IMG/VR virus record: IMGVR_UViG_3300028592_000084
Location: 1-21,834 of that record
Length of the DNA: 21,834 bases
Reading direction: 5' to 3' (one strand)
Origin: a virus
The notes below the pieces were generated by a model. The model ran no database searches, had not been told where the DNA came from, and saw nothing but the letters and a program-made list of their open reading frames with translations. A program made the translations under genes and the position numbers. Numbering within the stretch: position 1 is the stretch's first letter; the number at the start of each line of letters is the position of its first letter. Below are positions 1,845-19,587 of this stretch, piece after piece.

Positions 1845-4631
1845 TCACTTCTTTTCTTCGTCAGTGGTGGCAGCCGCCCGTAGCGGGGTCTGCTCGAATG
1901 TCTGCTGGAGGAAACGCTGTAGGCCAAGTGCGTCCTGGGCCAATGCCGGATCGCGCCTAGCTACATTCGATAGCCCGCGGGTGAATGCCTTGACATCGCC
2001 TTGGGGTGCGCGCGTCAGCAGGTTCACGAACAGTTTCGATGTCAGAAGCTTGCCAAGCCCATACTGGCCAGCCGCCGCTCCCGCTACCGCGGGGAGACCC
2101 GCCACACCACCCACAATAGTTGAGAAGAGTCCCTGTGCTCCGATAGACCGACCTGTGTTCGAACTGTTACTGTATGCTGCAGTCGCCTTCGCTTCCCGAG
2201 CGACTGTGGCAAGCTTATCGAGCGCCTTGCGCGTATCGCTCGGGAAAAGCGTGTCCTTTGCCTTCGTGGACATGCCATCCCACCGTTTCACGAAATCGTT
2301 GAAGGAGAACGCCCCTTCTTCCGCGTTGATCCCCTGACCGAGGCGATTGATGATTGTAGAACGAACGCTGGCCACCTCATCCTCAGGCATGGCGCTCATC
2401 AGTCGTTGCAGGCGCTTTGCGTCACCGGTTTCCCGGCTCGCCATACGCTCCAGCGCGCCAAGCACCTGCTCCCCACTCCGCGGCGCATTCTTGCCCAAAA
2501 GAGGTTCAAGAACCTGGTCTATCGTCTCGACACGCTTTTTCCAGAAGGCGTCCGCGGTTCTGAAAGCCTGCGCAGCGCGGTCGTTCCCGCTTTCCGATAG
2601 ACTATCCAAAATGTCTTCTGAGGCAGCCTCAACGACCGATTTCAAGCGCCGATCGGTGTCGTTGCCGCGCAATCCTCGGCTACCCGTCTCTTCACGTAAC
2701 CGCGTGCGCATATTGCGGATGCCGCGGATCGAAAAGTCCCCCTGCGACAAACTGGAGCGCAGTGCCTTCATCTCATCCAGCAGCGCTGAGCCAACCGGGG
2801 TTTCGGACAGTTCAGCGATCTGATTATCGAGTTCAGCCAAGGCTTTGACGGGCTTTACCCGCGCCCCTTGCGCTAGATCCTCGGCTCGCGTGTAGAGTGA
2901 GCCACCAGTTCGACCAGTCTCCTGCGAATAGACATTGGCTGCCTTCCGCACCAACTCACCCGCATCCTCCTTGTCCAGAGCGCGGCCCACTTGCTCAGCA
3001 GTTCGCCCTCGGAACTCTGCGGCCTGCTCGACGGATTTCGCAACCTTGTTGGCGATCGGAAGCTCTGAAATGAACATTTGCCGAGCTGCGCCGGTCAAGC
3101 CGCGCGTCACAGGACCGCCGACGTCAGCCGGAAGGATGTCAATTCCCGTGTCGCGCGCCGCTGCGGCGACGTTGCGTACTCCTCCTCCGCCGCCTCCCCC
3201 ACCAGCAGGCGGTGTGCGAGCGCCCAAACGATTAGCTACGGCGCCAAGGCCGCCCGCCACGGTAGCCCCGATAGCGGCGCCACCCGGCACAGCCCGGAAC
3301 CTATCGCCTAAATCGCCTTCAGCCGAGCCAAATGCATAGGCGCCCCCAAGCCCCGCACCTTCACCGGCCATTCTCAAGGCGCTACGAGGCGGCGTCGCAG
3401 GGATACCGCCTCGACCGATCACGCGGCCCAACGGAAAGAGCCCTCCGGCAAGCTGGCCACCGATACGCAGGGCCGGATTCACCCGCTCGTCCGCGCGATC
3501 GATCCCCCTTTCTGCTGCGAGATTATCCCGCATGGTGCCGCCTTCGAACAATGTCTTGCCGCCCGCCGCAAGCTCGTCTGCCAACCCGAGAGAAACCGTG
3601 TCTGCAATCCCGCGGACAAGGGGATCGGCAATTTGATCTTGGCGCTGTCTATCCATCGCCGCATCGGCAGCACGGTCTTTGAACTTGGGGTTGATCAGGT
3701 AGGTATCTGACAATGGCGGCTCTTCGCCAAACTCACGCCGATATGCCTCCGCAAACGCCGACGTGCCATCGCCGTAGGCGCGTGCGAGCGCGTCCACAGC
3801 GATTGCCCGATCATAGTCGGCTCGACTTGACCAAGTGCTCTGGGTGCCGTCTTGCTCGGTGCGCGTGACCGTGCCATCCTGGTTGAACACCGGCTTCGAT
3901 GGCTCGCGTTCCAAAGCCTTATCAACCAGAGAGCTAGGCGTGAGCGGATCGATTTCCTTGCCCTGCGTTCCGTCAAAAATCGAGTCGAGGTTGGCTAGAG
4001 CTGCATCGATTTGCGGAGCAGCTGGACCAGCTCGAAGCTTGGCTGATTCTAGCACAGCGCGCAGGCGCTTTTTCTTGTCTTCGATCGTGCCCGGAGCATC
4101 GGAAAGCTGTGGGAAGTGCGAGCGCCACGTATTCTGCAACTGCTCCTTGTTGTACGCGGCACCGGTCGCAAGATAGAGCGCCGCATCCAGCATATCGAGC
4201 TGCGCGTTATGGATGCGCTGCCTATCTTCGGATTGCGCGAACCCGCGAGCTTCATCCCCAAATGCGCCGGCCACGGTTTCCAGAACGCCGGGCTTCGTGT
4301 CCGCTGGGCTGCGTTGACCGGCCGTGGTCAGATCATTGAGAGAGTTCTGCAGGCGCACAGCCGCAGCAGCCGTCTTCGACTGATCCTCGGTGGGTTTTAC
4401 ATTTGCCCTCTCGGCCGCGGTAGCCGCCCGGTCTTCCGCCCGCGCCGCACGCTCGCTGGCTTCCTGCGCGCGCATCTCCGCGGCATCGGCACGTTGATCA
4501 CGCCTTATCTCAAGCGCGCTGGGCTGTTTCGGCCGTCCATAGATGATGCCCGGCGTCTGCGATGGCGCCGGAGCAGGAAGCGAAGCCCCGCCGCCCCAGT
4601 CCATTTCCCAAGGATTCTGTTGCTGCATCAT
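1845..4631 (-). CDS. Large DNA-ejection (internal virion) protein, P22 gp16 position
   Basis: The protein has 928 aa and its ATG overlaps the upstream stop as ATGA; the second codon is also ATG. A Pro-rich start is followed by an Ala/Arg/Glu-rich predicted coiled coil at about 38-102. A central Gly/Ala-rich weakly hydrophobic region at about 385-470 ends in a run of eight glycines. A long charged helical part follows, then another Gly/Ala hydrophobic segment near 840-870 (TIVGGVAGLPAVAGAAAGQY). This composition is typical of internal virion proteins that are ejected with the DNA and insert in the host envelope. Its place after the gp7- and gp20-position genes supports the gp16 role, although P22 gp16 (609 aa) is much shorter. 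No catalytic motif is seen. Confidence 0.7.
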   Translation of the reverse strand: MMQQQNPWEMDWGGGASLPAPAPSQTPGIIYGRPKQPSALEIRRDQRADAAEMRAQEASERAARAEDRAATAAERANVKPTEDQSKTAAAAVRLQNSLNDLTTAGQRSPADTKPGVLETVAGAFGDEARGFAQSEDRQRIHNAQLDMLDAALYLATGAAYNKEQLQNTWRSHFPQLSDAPGTIEDKKKRLRAVLESAKLRAGPAAPQIDAALANLDSIFDGTQGKEIDPLTPSSLVDKALEREPSKPVFNQDGTVTRTEQDGTQSTWSSRADYDRAIAVDALARAYGDGTSAFAEAYRREFGEEPPLSDTYLINPKFKDRAADAAMDRQRQDQIADPLVRGIADTVSLGLADELAAGGKTLFEGGTMRDNLAAERGIDRADERVNPALRIGGQLAGGLFPLGRVIGRGGIPATPPRSALRMAGEGAGLGGAYAFGSAEGDLGDRFRAVPGGAAIGATVAGGLGAVANRLGARTPPAGGGGGGGGVRNVAAAARDTGIDILPADVGGPVTRGLTGAARQMFISELPIANKVAKSVEQAAEFRGRTAEQVGRALDKEDAGELVRKAANVYSQETGRTGGSLYTRAEDLAQGARVKPVKALAELDNQIAELSETPVGSALLDEMKALRSSLSQGDFSIRGIRNMRTRLREETGSRGLRGNDTDRRLKSVVEAASEDILDSLSESGNDRAAQAFRTADAFWKKRVETIDQVLEPLLGKNAPRSGEQVLGALERMASRETGDAKRLQRLMSAMPEDEVASVRSTIINRLGQGINAEEGAFSFNDFVKRWDGMSTKAKDTLFPSDTRKALDKLATVAREAKATAAYSNSSNTGRSIGAQGLFSTIVGGVAGLPAVAGAAAGQYGLGKLLTSKLFVNLLTRAPQGDVKAFTRGLSNVARRDPALAQDALGLQRFLQQTFEQTPLRAAATTDEEKK

Positions 4632-5648: not shown

Positions 5649-6313
5649 CGCCCGCCTCCGAACCCGCCGCCGCGCTGGAATAGATAGGCGCTCAGGACGT
5701 TGTTGATGCCGGAGTTGATCGCGCTACCAGTGTTGGCGTAGCTCGACGCGCGGGCGTTCCCCATGTTCTGGTATGCGTTCATGATGTTGCCAGTGCTTGC
5801 CTGACCAGCAGCAATCCCGGTGTTCGTGGCCGCCTGCCCCACCCCAGCAAGACCAGCGAGACGGTTCCAGTAATTGCCGTACTCAGCCGATGCCGTGTCC
5901 TGCGCATAGTTGTTGGCCGCCTTGAGCGTTGCCCCGGACCCGAGAAGTCCCCGTGCCGCGGCCGAGCGCTCGATTGCCTTGTTGCCCTCCGCAAGACGGA
6001 ACTTGTAGCCAGGATCAGCGACGAACCCGCTTTCAGGGCCGCCACTCTCCGTCGAACCGTTGAGGCCGTATTCCCGCGCCAGCCTAGCAAGAGCGCTTGC
6101 TCCAGTGCTCCGCCACGGCGCAAGGTCTGCGCGGTCCTGCGCGTCCTTCTCACGCTGATAGGCGATCTGCTGGTTAGCCGCGTCCTTCTGGGCCTTGGCG
6201 GCCTTGTTGCCTGAAATGAGGCTCGAACCGGCACCGATTACGGCTCCTCCGACGATCGCGGCGGCGGGAATGGCCGTTACTCCCCGTTGGTGGAGGGCTG
6301 TGACGCCCTCCAC
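5645..6313 (-). CDS. DNA-ejection protein, P22 gp7 position
   Basis: From the GTG at 6313 the protein has 222 aa, close to P22 gp7 (229 aa). It has a short hydrophobic Gly/Ala segment at about 15-34 (IPAAAIVGGAVIGAGSSLIS), then a K/A/Q/D-rich helix. The second half is rich in Ala, Gly and Asn (SAAARGLLGSGATLKA and several N/Y/G repeats), typical of phage DNA-transfer proteins. The start is doubtful. GTG 6313 has no good SD and overlaps the upstream gene by 37 nt. An in-frame ATT at 6271 has GGGGAG 8 nt upstream and would give a 208-aa protein beginning directly at the hydrophobic segment (see findings). Confidence 0.65.
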   Translation of the reverse strand: MEGVTALHQRGVTAIPAAAIVGGAVIGAGSSLISGNKAAKAQKDAANQQIAYQREKDAQDRADLAPWRSTGASALARLAREYGLNGSTESGGPESGFVADPGYKFRLAEGNKAIERSAAARGLLGSGATLKAANNYAQDTASAEYGNYWNRLAGLAGVGQAATNTGIAAGQASTGNIMNAYQNMGNARASSYANTGSAINSGINNVLSAYLFQRGGGFGGGR

Positions 6314-6738
6314 TCATAGACATTGTAGGCCTCGGGGCCGGAGCCAATGTCGAACACCTTCTGTCCGCATGGCTTCATGCCAGCTGCGATGGTGAAGGAT
6401 CGCACATGACGGGCCTCCGGCTTGACCCGTGTCCAGAGGTGCTGTGCCCGGAATTCATCACGCAGGATGCCGATCCCGGCTTTGGCTGCTGCAAGCGCCC
6501 ATTCCCCGCGCCCCGCCTCGGTAATCATGGTGTGGACTTCGTATGTACCCGGCGCGCACCAGATCATGACGAAGCCGCCATAATCGCCCATCAGAGCAAT
6601 ATTGTTCTCATCCTCAATCGCCTTGGAGAGGTCGAGCGGCTTCGAAGCATCCCCCCCGACAAAGGGGCGAATGTCCGGTCGATTGACCAGATCGTTAATC
6701 GATGAACTACGGAAACTTCGCTCAAGGACTGCGGACAT
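6277..6738 (-). CDS. GNAT-like protein in the P22 gp14 (head assembly, DUF2824) position
   Basis: The protein has 153 aa. The sequence reads like a GNAT N-acyltransferase fold: an N-terminal helix followed by RPDIRPFVGGD, a strand pair GGFVMIWCAPGTYEVHTMI (about 55-73), a helix after RGEWALAAAKAGIGILRDE, a strand HLWTRVKPEARHVRSFTIAAGM and a C-terminal YNVYEWRA strand. The usual acetyl-CoA loop (Q/RxxGxG/A) is not evident at its expected site, so enzymatic activity is unproven. It sits between the tail genes and the gp7-position ejection protein, as gp14 does in P22. No SD is visible before ATG 6738; a candidate promoter lies 86-114 nt upstream. Confidence 0.55.
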   Translation of the reverse strand: MSAVLERSFRSSSINDLVNRPDIRPFVGGDASKPLDLSKAIEDENNIALMGDYGGFVMIWCAPGTYEVHTMITEAGRGEWALAAAKAGIGILRDEFRAQHLWTRVKPEARHVRSFTIAAGMKPCGQKVFDIGSGPEAYNVYEWRASQPSTNGE

Positions 6739-15124: not shown

Positions 15125-15547
15125 CTACTCCTGTGTCAGTAATCCAATGACATCGGCATCGTTGAGAATGGTGTACTCAACGTCGTCATCGCCCTTGTGC
15201 TGGTCGCCTGTGTATTTCCCGACCTTCACGCGATCACCCGGCTCGGGAAACCGTGCATCGATGCCGAAGTTCTTCGCGTCGTGCTTGGCCTCGCACCATG
15301 CCAGCGCGCCAACGGCGATCACCGTGGCATTGGTCATGGCGAACTTCTTCTTGTCCTTCTCGCTGTCGGGAAGGATGATTGAGCCGATCCTGTCTTCGAC
15401 CTTGTCGTGCAGAACCAGCACGCGATGATCGAGCGGGATGATGCCGGAAGGATTTGCCCTTCTCGTTCGATTGGCATCTACCGCAGCCAAGTGCTCGACC
15501 AGTTCCGCGTGCTTACCAGCTACCATCGATATGAGGCCGCTGCTCAC
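15125..15547 (-). CDS. Phage-encoded GroES-like co-chaperonin
   Basis: The protein has 140 aa from GTG 15547 (GGAGG 7 nt upstream; overlaps the preceding stop). Residues 36-137 align by eye with GroES: IPLDHRVLVLHDKVED (PLHDRVIV in E. coli), a mobile-loop region whose hydrophobic tripeptide IIL at 57-59 corresponds to the IVL that binds GroEL, then ATVIAVG, a GDRVKVGKY strand and YTILNDADVIGLL at the end. Unlike GroES (97 aa), it has a 35-residue helical N-terminal extension and a longer middle segment (81-100). T4 gp31 is a known phage co-chaperonin needed to fold its capsid protein. Placement between portal and scaffold suggests a similar task here. Confidence 0.82.
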   Translation of the reverse strand: MSSGLISMVAGKHAELVEHLAAVDANRTRRANPSGIIPLDHRVLVLHDKVEDRIGSIILPDSEKDKKKFAMTNATVIAVGALAWCEAKHDAKNFGIDARFPEPGDRVKVGKYTGDQHKGDDDVEYTILNDADVIGLLTQE

Positions 15548-15677: not shown

Positions 15678-15938
15678 TCATTCCTCCACTTTCATCCACT
15701 CAAGGGTTTCGCTCGTCAGCTTGGTCGTCGCGAGGCAGAACATGCCGATTGCGCGCATGCCATCGATGTTTCCCCATCCATAAATTTGCATCTCGCCATC
15801 GATTTCGGCGCACGCGACCATGCTCTCAACATGACCGATCTCACCTGAATCGATCTCGTCGGCCATCCGACGAAACTGGCCCGCAATGTCCTTCGCGCAC
15901 ACGGGCCTAAGCGGGACGACCTCAGGCTTGCTGGCCAT
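15678..15938 (-). CDS. Hypothetical phage protein, 86 aa
   Basis: ATG 15938 was chosen because AGGAGA lies just upstream; an in-frame start at 15974 would add 12 residues without an SD. It overlaps the end of the 84-aa gene by 17 nt. The layout is SKPEVVPLRP, a helix DIAGQFRRMADEIDSGEIG, then strand-rich SMVACAEIDGEMQIYGWG and a C-terminal helix. Proteins starting with VVPLRP and a DEI..G motif occur as small uncharacterised phage genes. Function unknown. Confidence 0.6.
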   Translation of the reverse strand: MASKPEVVPLRPVCAKDIAGQFRRMADEIDSGEIGHVESMVACAEIDGEMQIYGWGNIDGMRAIGMFCLATTKLTSETLEWMKVEE

Positions 15939-16176
15939 CGTCTTCTCCTGCGTGGTACTGGGCGACAACATCATCCCAATCCATCGCTGCTAGCTGGCCC
16001 AACAAGACCGCCTGCGCCTGCGCCTCCGGGAGGTGGGAACCCGCCGTCCCCTGCCCCCATGCCTGCGTCAGGTTCGATTGGCGGTCCCTCAGAAACTGGA
16101 AGAACTCCACCGTCGTCGGGTGCTCCCTCCATTGCTGGAACAGGTCCTTGTCCATCAGGCGGATCGGGCTGGCCAT
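15922..16176 (-). CDS. 84-aa phage protein overprinted on the portal gene 3' end
   Basis: ATG 16176 has GAGGA 5 nt upstream, inside the portal gene, and the frame differs from the portal's; 206 nt are shared. The protein has a normal, well-balanced composition: DLFQQWREHPTTVEFFQFLR, then DRQSNLTQAWGQG and a C-terminal helical QAVLLGQLAAMDWDDVVAQY. The W..(H)P.T......L..R...L..AW pattern is typical of small genes that follow portal genes in other phages (family knowledge, not searched here). In contrast, the portal frame here is Gly/Pro low-complexity, so this frame is the likely older one. Function unknown. Confidence 0.7.
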   Translation of the reverse strand: MASPIRLMDKDLFQQWREHPTTVEFFQFLRDRQSNLTQAWGQGTAGSHLPEAQAQAVLLGQLAAMDWDDVVAQYHAGEDDGQQA

Positions 16177-18100
16177 CGGCTTCCTCTACTGCTTTGGCGG
16201 CCAGTGTGGCCGCGTCTTCCATCAAGCCAAGGTTCGCGGCCCGTTCGGCTGCTCCGGTGTATTTCTCGGCGGCGGTGGCGGATGCGGTCTTGGCTCGGCT
16301 GTCCGCGTCCTTCGCCGCAGTCTCAGCTTTAGCCATGCCCTCCAGCATCTTAGGATCAGGCTGTGGCGGAGGCACTTCGAAATATGCCTTCACATCGCGC
16401 GCGCCCATCGCCACGAGCATATCCTCTCGGATTTTCTTCTGGTTGATGAGCGGGTCGCCATTGAACGTCTGCATCATGGCCTCGGCGCGGGCCATCTTGT
16501 GCATGTCGCTGACCTGCCCCGGGTCGCTGACCGGGATCACATCGAGATCTTCGTCGGCGTAATCCTCACGAGCGATTTCTACAGCCTGCTCTGCATCGTT
16601 GAGCTGGAAATACTCCTCCTCATCGAGGTAGTCCCGGTTGAGGCGACGAAGGATGCGCAGCTCCTGCCCGAACGAACGGTGGATGCGCTTGAAGATGCCC
16701 TTCCGCACCGTCGAAGCCTGTTCGATCAATGCGAGCGTAGTGGTGGCGGGCTGATTAGGGGAGGCGCGGCCCGCCACCACATCCTGCGCTGACGTGATGT
16801 CACGCGCAGCTTGGTAGAGCATCTCAAGAAGGGCGAACGAGGTCGAAGACGGACCTTCTGCTGGCATCGGGAAGAACGCATCGCGCATGTTCATCCCATT
16901 CGGGACATCAGCACGCTTCCACTCTCCGAGGCGGAACGAGAAGTTGCCGCCGCGGACATTGATACCCGAGGCAACAAACCCACCGCCAGCATTGGCGAGC
17001 GCCGCCGCGTCAATCATCTGGTTCTGCAGCCGATCGATCAGGCCAGTGACGTTTTCCAAGAGGTCACCGAACCCAATGTCATAGAACGAGCCATCAGGCG
17101 ACGGAATGAACCCGTACTTGGTGAAGTACTGGCGCCGGCTGATCTTGACGACCTCAAGCTGCATGTTCGGGATCGAACCGCCCTGAAGCAGTTCCACCAG
17201 CTTGGTCGGCTTGGCGAGGATCGGCGAGTTGATGATAACGTCTTCGGGACCAAAGCAAGGCACGACCCGCGCAACTTCGCCGTCAGTCGTGCAGGTGACG
17301 ACGTAATGCTCGGGGTATCCGTCGCCGTCGAGATCCTCACACCGATGCTGCTCGTAGAACTCGACCAGGGCCTGATCGTCTTCGCTGCTATCATCCCCCT
17401 CAAGGCTGACCGGCCTCCACAGGCCTGCAGCGATGAATTCTTGCGCCTCATAGGGGTAATAGTGCAGACGGTGCGTGTACCGCGGCGCCGTCTCGATCGA
17501 CTTCGCATCGTTGCTGATGATGAAGTCGAGGCCGTTGACGATCTCGCTACGGTTCGCGTTCTCGATGCTGTCGTAATAGGTCTTGCGGAACATGCAGCCG
17601 ACAATGGGCAGCATGAGCAAAAGTTTGTCGGTATCCTCTTCCCACCCCGGCATGCGGTAGAGAAGCTGCCACGTCATATGCTGGCCGATGCGATCAGCCC
17701 GCGAACGCTTTTCGCCATCCGGATCAGGACCAAGAACGCGGCCTTTGACCAGGTTCGAGCCATCCACAATGACCGGATAGGCTTCGGCGTTGAACTGGAT
17801 GGCCGCGATGGTCAGGATCGGCGAACGCGAGTTGGATGCGCCAGGCCAAGGGAAGACCTTTGGCTCCTTCTTCTGCATCGCGATGTCGATGTTGCGCTGG
17901 TAGCGGTCCTGCCACTCGCCACGCGACGATTCATCAAGCTCGACGTCGCGAATGACGGCCTGACCGATGCGAGCCAGATCGGTGTCCGGGATGTAATCGG
18001 CGAGGTTTCCGCCGACCGACAGGATATCGAGCAGGCCAAGCGCGGGCGCGGCCTCTTCCTGCGTCTCTTCTTCGATCATTTCGATGGGCTGAGTGGCCAT
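15971..18100 (-). CDS. Portal protein (P22 gp1-like)
   Basis: The protein has 709 aa (P22 portal: 725 aa). The TerL stop overlaps ATG 18100 by one base, and GGGGGA precedes it. An N-terminal EWQDRYQRNIDIAMQKKEPK and FPWPGASNSRSPILTIAAIQ segment is typical of P22-like portals. Helical stem and crown regions with DVVAGRASPNQPATTTLALI and IHRSFGQELRILRRLNRDYL follow. Near 575-640 an Ala/Lys/Glu helix (KMLEGMAKAETAAKDADSRA) may be the start of a barrel. The last 65 residues are Gly/Pro/Asp low-complexity and share DNA with the 84-aa gene. Portals form the dodecameric DNA channel at one capsid vertex. Confidence 0.85.
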   Translation of the reverse strand: MATQPIEMIEEETQEEAAPALGLLDILSVGGNLADYIPDTDLARIGQAVIRDVELDESSRGEWQDRYQRNIDIAMQKKEPKVFPWPGASNSRSPILTIAAIQFNAEAYPVIVDGSNLVKGRVLGPDPDGEKRSRADRIGQHMTWQLLYRMPGWEEDTDKLLLMLPIVGCMFRKTYYDSIENANRSEIVNGLDFIISNDAKSIETAPRYTHRLHYYPYEAQEFIAAGLWRPVSLEGDDSSEDDQALVEFYEQHRCEDLDGDGYPEHYVVTCTTDGEVARVVPCFGPEDVIINSPILAKPTKLVELLQGGSIPNMQLEVVKISRRQYFTKYGFIPSPDGSFYDIGFGDLLENVTGLIDRLQNQMIDAAALANAGGGFVASGINVRGGNFSFRLGEWKRADVPNGMNMRDAFFPMPAEGPSSTSFALLEMLYQAARDITSAQDVVAGRASPNQPATTTLALIEQASTVRKGIFKRIHRSFGQELRILRRLNRDYLDEEEYFQLNDAEQAVEIAREDYADEDLDVIPVSDPGQVSDMHKMARAEAMMQTFNGDPLINQKKIREDMLVAMGARDVKAYFEVPPPQPDPKMLEGMAKAETAAKDADSRAKTASATAAEKYTGAAERAANLGLMEDAATLAAKAVEEADGQPDPPDGQGPVPAMEGAPDDGGVLPVSEGPPIEPDAGMGAGDGGFPPPGGAGAGGLVGPASSDGLG

Positions 18101-19587
18101 CAATATCCCCCCTCAGGCATACGGTCGCCTTCCCAGCGGTCGTGCTCATCTTCGTAGAAACTGGGAAGCACGGGCACAGCGAAGGTCAGCGCAAGGCCAT
18201 CGCCATCGTCAGGCGATGCGAGACCGCGCGCCTTCATGTGCTCCTTGCGCTCAAGCTGGATTTCGTCGCGGACGTTGAAGCTGTACTCCACGCCGGTCAG
18301 ATCGTCCGCAAGCTGCTGATCATCGGTCAACGCGCCGCCATCGAGCCACTCACGCATGATCGCCCACATCTCCGCACGCCGATTGGCGCACTTCACGTTG
18401 TTGAGCAGACGAACCGCGCCAAGCGGTTTCGACCCGAACTGCACCCCAACGACGGGCAGGCCCATCTGCTTCAGGCGATCGACAACACCTGCGCCAATGC
18501 CGCCCTCATCGACGCAGACCATCGCCGCATTGTGGAGCCGCTGCTCTTGGGCGACGCGAGCGGCCAGCTGCATCGTGTCCACACCATGCAGACGAATGGG
18601 CTTGATCGTTCGGGCATCCCTGCCCTGCCGGAAGTAGATCGCGCTATGGTCGTCGCCGAAACGGGCAACATCGACACCTATGACGATCGGCTCGCTTTCC
18701 TCGTGCTGTATCTCCCTGTGCCGGGCTGCGTCCACCAGACCTGAGCCGATGAACTGCATCGATGAGGTGGACGGGAACATGCCCCGCACGCGCACCTTCA
18801 CGATGTCACTGTCCTCGCCATAGGTCTGGACCATCTCGTTGAGATATGCCTTGTTGGTTCCTTCAACGTCGCGACTGTCGATCTGGCGCGTCTTCCACAG
18901 GTTACGGAAGCGACCGAAGCACTCTCGGAAACGGCCTGTGTTCTGCGTAGGGTTTCCGAAGGCTATCCAGATGATCTCGGTTCCCTCGTCCGTCAGCGCG
19001 CCCTCGGTGACCTCCCACACCTTGTCGGCGATCTTGGACGCCTCATCAAAGATGATGACGATGCGCTTGCCCTTGTTGTGCAGGCCGGCGAAAGCTTCGG
19101 TGTTGTGCTCCGACCATGTGACCGCGTCGCAACGCCACGATTCCTCGTGACCGCCGACGATGCTGAAGATCCCCGTCTTGGTGACCTTCCACCAGTCCTT
19201 GGTGATCGCGAGTCCGTTCCACTTGCTGACCTCGGGCCACGTCTTGGTGCGCAGCTGAAGCTCGGTGTTCGCCGTGATGACGATACGCGTGTCTTCGCAG
19301 GTGTCCTTGGCCCACCCGATAATCATGCTGATCAGCGCCGACTTGCCGATACCGTGCCCGGATGCAACCGCGAGGCGAAGCGGCTCATGGCGCGTGGCCG
19401 GGTTGCTCAGATGGTCGCGGATGTCCTCCATGACATCGGACTGCCAGTCGCGTGGCCCTTGCATGTCGGACAGCGCGCCGGTTTCCTGCCATGGATAGGA
19501 ATAGACCGCATAGCCAAGCGGGTCGTGCGTGAAGCCCGCTATGTCGTTCGCCAGTTCGATGATGGGATCAGGCGCGCGACTAGCCAT
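18100..19587 (-). CDS. terL: Terminase large subunit (TerL)
   Basis: The protein has 495 aa from ATG 19587, which has GAGG 6 nt upstream; a start four codons earlier would place that SD inside the gene. Walker A SGHGIGKS is at 76-83 and Walker B VIIFDEAS at 177-184 (ATPase motor). The RNase H-like nuclease domain shows GVDVARFGDD at 304-313, an acidic CVDEGGIGAG near 359, and SPDDGDGLALT at 456-466. TerL pumps DNA into the procapsid and cuts the concatemer. It overlaps terS by 8 nt and the portal by 1 nt, so the three packaging genes are co-translated. Confidence 0.92.
   Translation of the reverse strand: MASRAPDPIIELANDIAGFTHDPLGYAVYSYPWQETGALSDMQGPRDWQSDVMEDIRDHLSNPATRHEPLRLAVASGHGIGKSALISMIIGWAKDTCEDTRIVITANTELQLRTKTWPEVSKWNGLAITKDWWKVTKTGIFSIVGGHEESWRCDAVTWSEHNTEAFAGLHNKGKRIVIIFDEASKIADKVWEVTEGALTDEGTEIIWIAFGNPTQNTGRFRECFGRFRNLWKTRQIDSRDVEGTNKAYLNEMVQTYGEDSDIVKVRVRGMFPSTSSMQFIGSGLVDAARHREIQHEESEPIVIGVDVARFGDDHSAIYFRQGRDARTIKPIRLHGVDTMQLAARVAQEQRLHNAAMVCVDEGGIGAGVVDRLKQMGLPVVGVQFGSKPLGAVRLLNNVKCANRRAEMWAIMREWLDGGALTDDQQLADDLTGVEYSFNVRDEIQLERKEHMKARGLASPDDGDGLALTFAVPVLPSFYEDEHDRWEGDRMPEGGY

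Follow-up and report, generated by a model that had tools for sequence, protein, structure and literature searches.

A phage portal gene that most likely grew into an older small gene, with both readings of the overlap apparently kept by selection

Where the 3' end of one gene runs far into the next gene in another frame, it has to be asked which of the two genes grew, and whether the second reading is kept for the protein it encodes. This question is raised by the portal gene of the virus contig analysed here (21,834 bases, the whole of which we call the window), the end of which lies over a small gene for 206 nt. A function is difficult to demonstrate for long overlaps of this kind, many of which can be accounted for by neutral models. 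In the present case, the diverged relatives number in the dozens, include both overlapping and non-overlapping loci, and serve as internal controls for selection in the second frame; the series of overlap lengths found among them shows intermediate states and allows a direct test of the way in which protein segments may newly arise through stop-codon loss.

Both genes are on the (-) strand. The SU10-like portal gene (15971-18103) encodes 710 aa from a TTG at 18103 or 709 aa from an ATG at 18100, the latter being probably the start as judged by eye from the sequence, and it ends in a TGA stop codon (15973-15971). The protein reached 55.6 bits against PF23899, SU10_portal (E 4.4e-15; Pfam gathering cut-off 30), and E 1.5e-26 against the PHROG portal family; its predicted fold, a moderate model with a pLDDT of 73, had the SU10 portal 7z44 as its best Foldseek match (E 3.3e-18), and a PDB sequence-profile search gave no match at E 0.1. 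The small gene (15922-16176, ATG start) encodes 84 aa with four predicted helices and a W16...T22 motif, and its Shine-Dalgarno sequence GAGGA (16182-16186) lies within the portal gene, 5 nt 5' of the ATG. The shared DNA (15971-16176) encodes portal residues 643-710 and small-protein residues 1-68. With more than 6 nt shared on the same strand in different frames and the small gene in the +1 frame relative to the portal, this is a long phase-1 overlap, in which each portal codon is made of the third base of one small-gene codon and the first two bases of the next. An earlier note on this DNA had pointed to the overlap, to the ribosome site and to a low-complexity Gly/Pro/Asp portal tail, all of which were borne out, the tail being 30% Gly, 21% Pro and 10% Asp.

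Downstream, the next gene (15678-15938) has a likely start, picked by eye, at the ATG at 15938 with AGGAG ahead of it. Its longest open reading frame (15678-15974) begins inside the portal stop (ATGA), and the ATG at 15938 has the better ribosome site; the gene thus probably starts at 15938 rather than at 15974 and overlaps the small gene by 17 nt. It is followed by a gene for a GroES-like co-chaperonin (15125-15547; PF00166 at E 4.2e-10, PHROG co-chaperonin GroES at E 2.2e-9), and the gene order is terminase, portal and GroES-like gene, with the capsid protein beyond. Elsewhere in the window, a 928-aa protein (1845-4631) matches a PHROG of unknown function over only part of its length (about 150 residues, E 1.5e-15).

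The first six relatives that reached the portal end all carried the small gene in the same place (6/6, 41-69% identical). Further relatives were obtained via portal searches and via alignments, and those from two wider scans are the best 80 of 113 and the best 80 of at least 537 matches. The collection of 233 loci with a portal was reduced to 167 distinct complete portal 3' ends, of which 151 had a small-gene homologue (E 1e-3 or better) beside the SU10-like portal and 16 had none at that threshold; the scans started from overlapping phages, with their portals and small genes as queries, and the sample therefore favours overlapping relatives. Leaving out five matches without a start codon (L012, L038, L149, L151 and L152) gave 146 loci. 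The small-gene profile also found homologues in outgroups whose portal stops no later than the small-gene start, namely two Manatee Spring phages and Alcaligenes phage vB_Af_QDWS535; in the last (L012, OK172329.1) the homologue at 3346-3531 is unannotated and was assigned without a common start codon. The internal ribosome site is widely kept, with a Shine-Dalgarno match of at least 4 bases in 66 of the 71 rows with an overlap above 100 nt.

Searched as a single sequence, the small protein had no match among viral contigs and phages; the 84-aa protein of the window had none in Pfam or PHROGs, and 33 members of the family gave best values of E 0.0032 in PHROGs (two members) and E 0.0035 in Pfam (four members), none of them consistent. 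There was no significant match to PDB sequences, and the predicted fold (pLDDT 84.8) had no Foldseek match at E 0.001 or better in the PDB and none at E 0.001 in a viral structure library, where the best sub-threshold match was an uncharacterized Caudovirales protein (E 0.023, TM 0.75 by query length). In some pairs the small gene diverges more than the DNA on either side, as in L191 and L216, where it is about 0.7 identical between flanks near 0.89, so that a host-facing or assembly role is possible on sequence grounds. In both L191/L216 and L188/L197 the small gene region is about 0.6-0.7 identical and the flanks are near 0.89, as if alleles had been exchanged; in L122 and L135 the portal cores are 99% identical at the protein level and the small genes 48%, with divergence starting about 450 nt before the portal stop. 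Prophages of this type lie in two sphingomonad genomes, which suggests an alphaproteobacterial host for the window; related prophages are those of Sphingopyxis sp. JAI128 (L056) and Sphingobium chungbukense DJ77 (L057). A host survey matched 1 of 396 genomes in the order, 3 of 385 in the class and 3 of 398 in the phylum, the seed genome being counted in all three and one other genome in two of them.

Of the 146 loci, 71 have an overlap above 100 nt and 24 one of 8-100 nt; in the remaining 51 it is shorter than 8 nt or absent. The start codons used here are rule-based, and some overlap lengths varied between assignments. Each of the 95 overlaps of at least 8 nt lies in the +1 frame, and their lengths form a graded series of 8, 14, 17, 20, 23, 26, 32, 35, 38, 53, 56, 62 and 65 nt that continues through 71, 83, 92, 95 and 113 up to 236 nt. 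Long overlaps cluster, with 4 changes on a mixture-model tree of 43 rows (mean of 12.7 for shuffled labels) and 10 on a FastTree of 167 rows (mean of 53.9). The earlier note had seen the overlap as an exception within this operon; this did not hold, as it is common to a deep clade, and in the clade of the window on the larger tree 43 of 43 rows overlap by more than 100 nt. On trees with long branches and weak deep forks, the long overlap may have had one origin with losses or several origins.

The substitution pattern bears on whether both frames are in use. In 15 close pairs (861 codons), changes in the overlap were spread almost evenly over the three small-gene codon positions (.116/.114/.130), whereas the same genes beyond the portal stop gave.108/.115/.253 (296 codons), non-overlapping homologues.145/.103/.312 (13 pairs, 1031 codons) and the portal core.064/.034/.276. 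Third-position changes, at 112/861 in the overlap against 75/296 in the C-terminal part, were thus about halved (Fisher p 1.6e-6). Pairs with a small-protein identity below 55% were left out of this comparison, L122/L135 among them, for which an earlier pair set had given.148/.138/.149 in the overlap. A pattern that is flat in the overlap and three-periodic beside it indicates that both frames restrain change, and such purifying selection in both frames is the mark of functional overlapping genes. That the small gene is coding is indicated by the periodicity of its C-terminal part and by conservation beyond chance; it appears from this comparison of sequences that natural selection maintains both readings. 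The earlier note had proposed a test for a conserved 84-aa frame beside a variable portal tail. The first part stands, the small frame being conserved in overlapping and non-overlapping relatives alike, and the second does not, in that the portal frame is itself constrained.

The composition of the tail tells what this constraint may be for. The window's tail has no Lys, Arg, His, Cys, Trp or Tyr and a net charge of -10. For a null model, the small protein was held fixed, its codons were redrawn with the portal's own usage and only open frames were kept; 70 of the 71 rows with long overlaps could be used, L236 giving too few open shuffles for the test of excess. In these 70 rows the tails fell below expectation (observed/expected, in %) in Arg (0.7/9.2), Lys (0.2/1.0), His (0.2/2.3), Cys (0/0.9), Trp (0/0.3), Tyr (0.1/0.9) and Ser (3.8/6.9), and rose above it in Gly (27.3/17.8), Asp (7.8/5.5), Glu (6.2/4.8) and Met (3.1/0.8). 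In the window, the six residues that are absent were expected 10.7 times, and 0 of 200 shuffles came as low. Related rows make row-based p-values overstate the case; with 34 representatives below 50% small-protein identity, which only reduces the effect of kinship, the sum of Lys, Arg, His, Cys, Trp and Tyr was below expectation in 34/34 (sign test p 1e-10), and L029 was the sole representative without significance alone (P 0.155). The shifted frame in three controls, namely the C-termini, the portal core and the non-overlapping homologues, showed no such purge (Arg ratios 1.04, 1.05 and 0.91) and no deviation in net charge or in Lys plus Arg. In short overlaps of 30-100 nt there was a polar shift, with Gly, Asn and Gln up, and no shift to net negative charge (mean z -0.17). 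Stop avoidance was also considered as evidence and dropped, given that the frame is by definition open up to its stop and that chance openness is about 0.3 at the median; in the window, 14% of the shuffles that keep the 84-aa protein and use the portal's codons leave the portal frame open.

The same purge can be read from the small gene's choice of third bases. Where the following small-gene codon begins with G, the third base in the overlap is G 91% of the time and C 1.8%, as compared to 30% and 45% in sampled chunks of the portal core. Before A, C is used in 39% of cases where it gives the portal Gln and in 1.7% where it gives His (p 3e-49), and A in 19% where it gives Asn and in 1.3% where it gives Lys; before G, A is used in 14% for Ser and in 1.3% for Arg. 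These splits occur within one and the same dinucleotide, which excludes dinucleotide effects. Moreover, at two conserved Trp-codon columns of the small gene the portal has Met more often than expected (59% vs 21% at column 18 and 71% vs 10% at column 42), so that some positions seem to be selected as residues and not by composition alone. In the window, the Met of a portal 'MEG' motif (16130-16132) is formed from the last base of small-gene Q15 (CAA) and the TG of W16, and that of a 'GMG' motif (16058-16060) from the last base of A39 (GCA) and the TG of W40. Taking composition, codon choice and the model of the fold together, the tail appears to be an acidic and disordered extension, under selection, of the portal barrel; its function we infer.

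Of the other explanations, the one that survives best is that passive stop loss in GC-rich genomes left a long neutral tail, the Gly/Pro richness of which would be a by-product of the small gene's codons. Overlap length does correlate with GC content (rho 0.73), which fits a portal that can run on more easily when +1-frame stops are scarce; published neutral models predict long phase-1 overlaps through elongation of the upstream gene (PMC3887535, PMC2174442, as seen in part), and part of the Gly, Pro, Ala, Asp and Glu does follow from the small protein (54.5% expected). However, the observed share is 71.4%, with an excess in 70 of 70 rows when compared to open shuffles only (mean z 3.36), the third-position changes are halved, and the His/Gln, Lys/Asn and Arg/Ser splits could not come from base or dinucleotide composition. 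Codon biases and a flat substitution pattern, the two signs that speak against a neutral tail, were both observed. As an account of the tail as it now stands, passive stop loss is thus unlikely; as a model of the first step only, it stays open.

It could further be argued that translational coupling or an RNA element, rather than the tail protein, is what maintains the overlap. The ribosome site of the small gene does lie inside the portal gene, and overlapping gene pairs are often translationally coupled, but a few nt of overlap suffice for coupling, and an RNA element would leave unexplained a choice of codons that is specific to the amino acid along some 60 codons. We consider this rather improbable as the reason for the overlap, and coupling may act in addition.

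The direction of growth can be judged from the loci without overlap. The same small gene follows the portal without overlap in named phages and in many contigs, and the median length of the small protein is 82 aa with overlap and 78 aa without, from which it seems that the small gene is not the one that grew. In the predicted portal fold the last helix spans residues 628-643, residues 645-710 have a pLDDT below 50, and the overlap starts in portal codon 643, at the end of the fold. These observations, together with the graded series in a single frame, point to an origin by 3' elongation of the upstream gene and uphold the suggestion of the earlier note that the portal stop was lost and the C-terminus extended. 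From such comparisons it is most likely that the small gene is older and that the portal grew into it. The opposite order, in which the 84-aa gene was born de novo within an older and longer portal gene, is the usual direction for viral overlaps, a new frame arising inside an existing one (PMC6195259, in the part available). It is very improbable here, with homologues standing alone, non-overlapping, beside many diverged portals including those of the outgroups, and with a portal fold that the model has as complete without the tail. Ribosomal frameshifting that joins the two frames in a minor fusion product, which the overlap would permit, is hardly credible for a small gene that has its own Shine-Dalgarno sequence and start and is non-overlapping elsewhere.

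Three exceptions indicate that the overlap can be undone. In L071, which falls within a group of long overlaps, the region that overlaps in relatives holds a gene for a GIY-YIG endonuclease (PF01541, E 1e-9; 5940-6566). The portal of L071 has a different C-terminal tail, which is again acidic, and the small gene lies intact 611 nt downstream; the overprinted tail can thus be given up or replaced. L010 has an overlap of only 4 nt and a long non-overlapping Pro/Gly/Met-rich portal tail with no Lys or Arg in its last 80 residues. L033 has another portal tail, which contains Lys, and its contig ends before any small gene could show. L071 and L010 hint that a tail that is acidic, or uncharged to acidic, is retained or re-formed on loss of the overlap, and L033 does not fit. 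In two other relatives a Tad2-like anti-defence gene (PF11195) lies between the portal and the small gene (L188, 6082-6612, E 1.1e-22; L223, 5933-6448, E 6.5e-23), and with varied short open reading frames at this junction in further relatives, it looks like an insertion spot.

Considering these findings, it can be proposed that the 84-aa gene was an old separate gene of the portal-GroES-capsid operon, and that an ancestor of the clade to which the window belongs lost the portal stop, in a single step or in several, the order of events being inferred. The portal would have run on in the +1 frame into the small gene, adding some 40-75 residues that, by comparison and by the predicted fold, form a disordered, acidic, Gly/Pro-rich tail past the last helix of the portal. 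Both proteins would be made from one mRNA, the portal by through-translation and the small protein by internal initiation, as its start and Shine-Dalgarno sequence suggest. The tail is now selected as protein, as the data show: the synonymous sites of the small gene are used to exclude Arg, Lys, His, Cys, Trp and Tyr from the tail and to hold two Met in it. Twelve such tails most likely hang from the portal barrel into the head as a flexible negative brush that would neither bind nor snag the packaged DNA. For a tail from which Arg, Lys and His have been purged, a brush that repels DNA is the simplest interpretation, and through the Met motifs it may touch a partner in assembly. We hold it to be probable, with good confidence, that the whole account is right in its outline of an old small gene, a portal that ran on, two proteins made and a tail selected as protein. 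It is a more tentative thought, and somewhat less likely than not, that the portal gained a new working part de novo by stepwise migration of its stop codon through the older gene, namely a disordered tail that repels DNA and carries two Met anchors. The chemistry of this tail would be stored in synonymous sites of the small gene, and the steps would be preserved in the overlaps of 0 to 236 nt, among them a case in which a homing endonuclease broke the overlap and another tail took its place.

The pair also marks a blind spot of annotation. Prodigal limits same-strand overlaps to 60 bp (PMC2848648, as far as the part seen goes), with the consequence that it cannot report the small gene together with the full portal, and this may explain why the pair has been missed. 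In literature on overlaps of portal genes, on disorder in portal tails and on long overlaps in phages, available mostly as titles and abstract openings, we did not find the arrangement described.

The mechanism of stop-codon loss is known; what is new is the depth, the graded series and the dual coding at the level of residues. Long phase-1 overlaps by stop-codon loss are established (Fonseca et al. 2013, PMC3887535; PMC2174442; both as excerpts), and there too the genes share a strand, the frame is +1 and the upstream gene is extended into the downstream one. Their models have length and phase arise largely without selection, whereas the present tail is purged of basic residues, Cys, Trp and Tyr and has been kept over a deep clade. 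In the accessible part of a survey of viral overlapping genes (PMC6195259), overprinted proteins are disorder-promoting and Pro-rich, as here, but they are enriched in arginine, whereas this portal tail is nearly free of it. The portal of phage SU10 (PF23899; PDB 7z44; PMC9509320) is alike in the family and fold of its core, and the tail present here after the last helix, overprinted and acidic, has no counterpart in the portion of the SU10 paper at hand. A further parallel is the barrel of the P22 portal (PMC5290284, an excerpt), which is C-terminal and inside the head, as proposed for the present tail, is mildly acidic and unfolded in the procapsid, and has been proposed to be straightened by repulsion from DNA; in the mature P22 virion, however, the barrel is helical, whereas the tail described here is predicted to be disordered, is rich in Gly and Pro, and is dual-coded.
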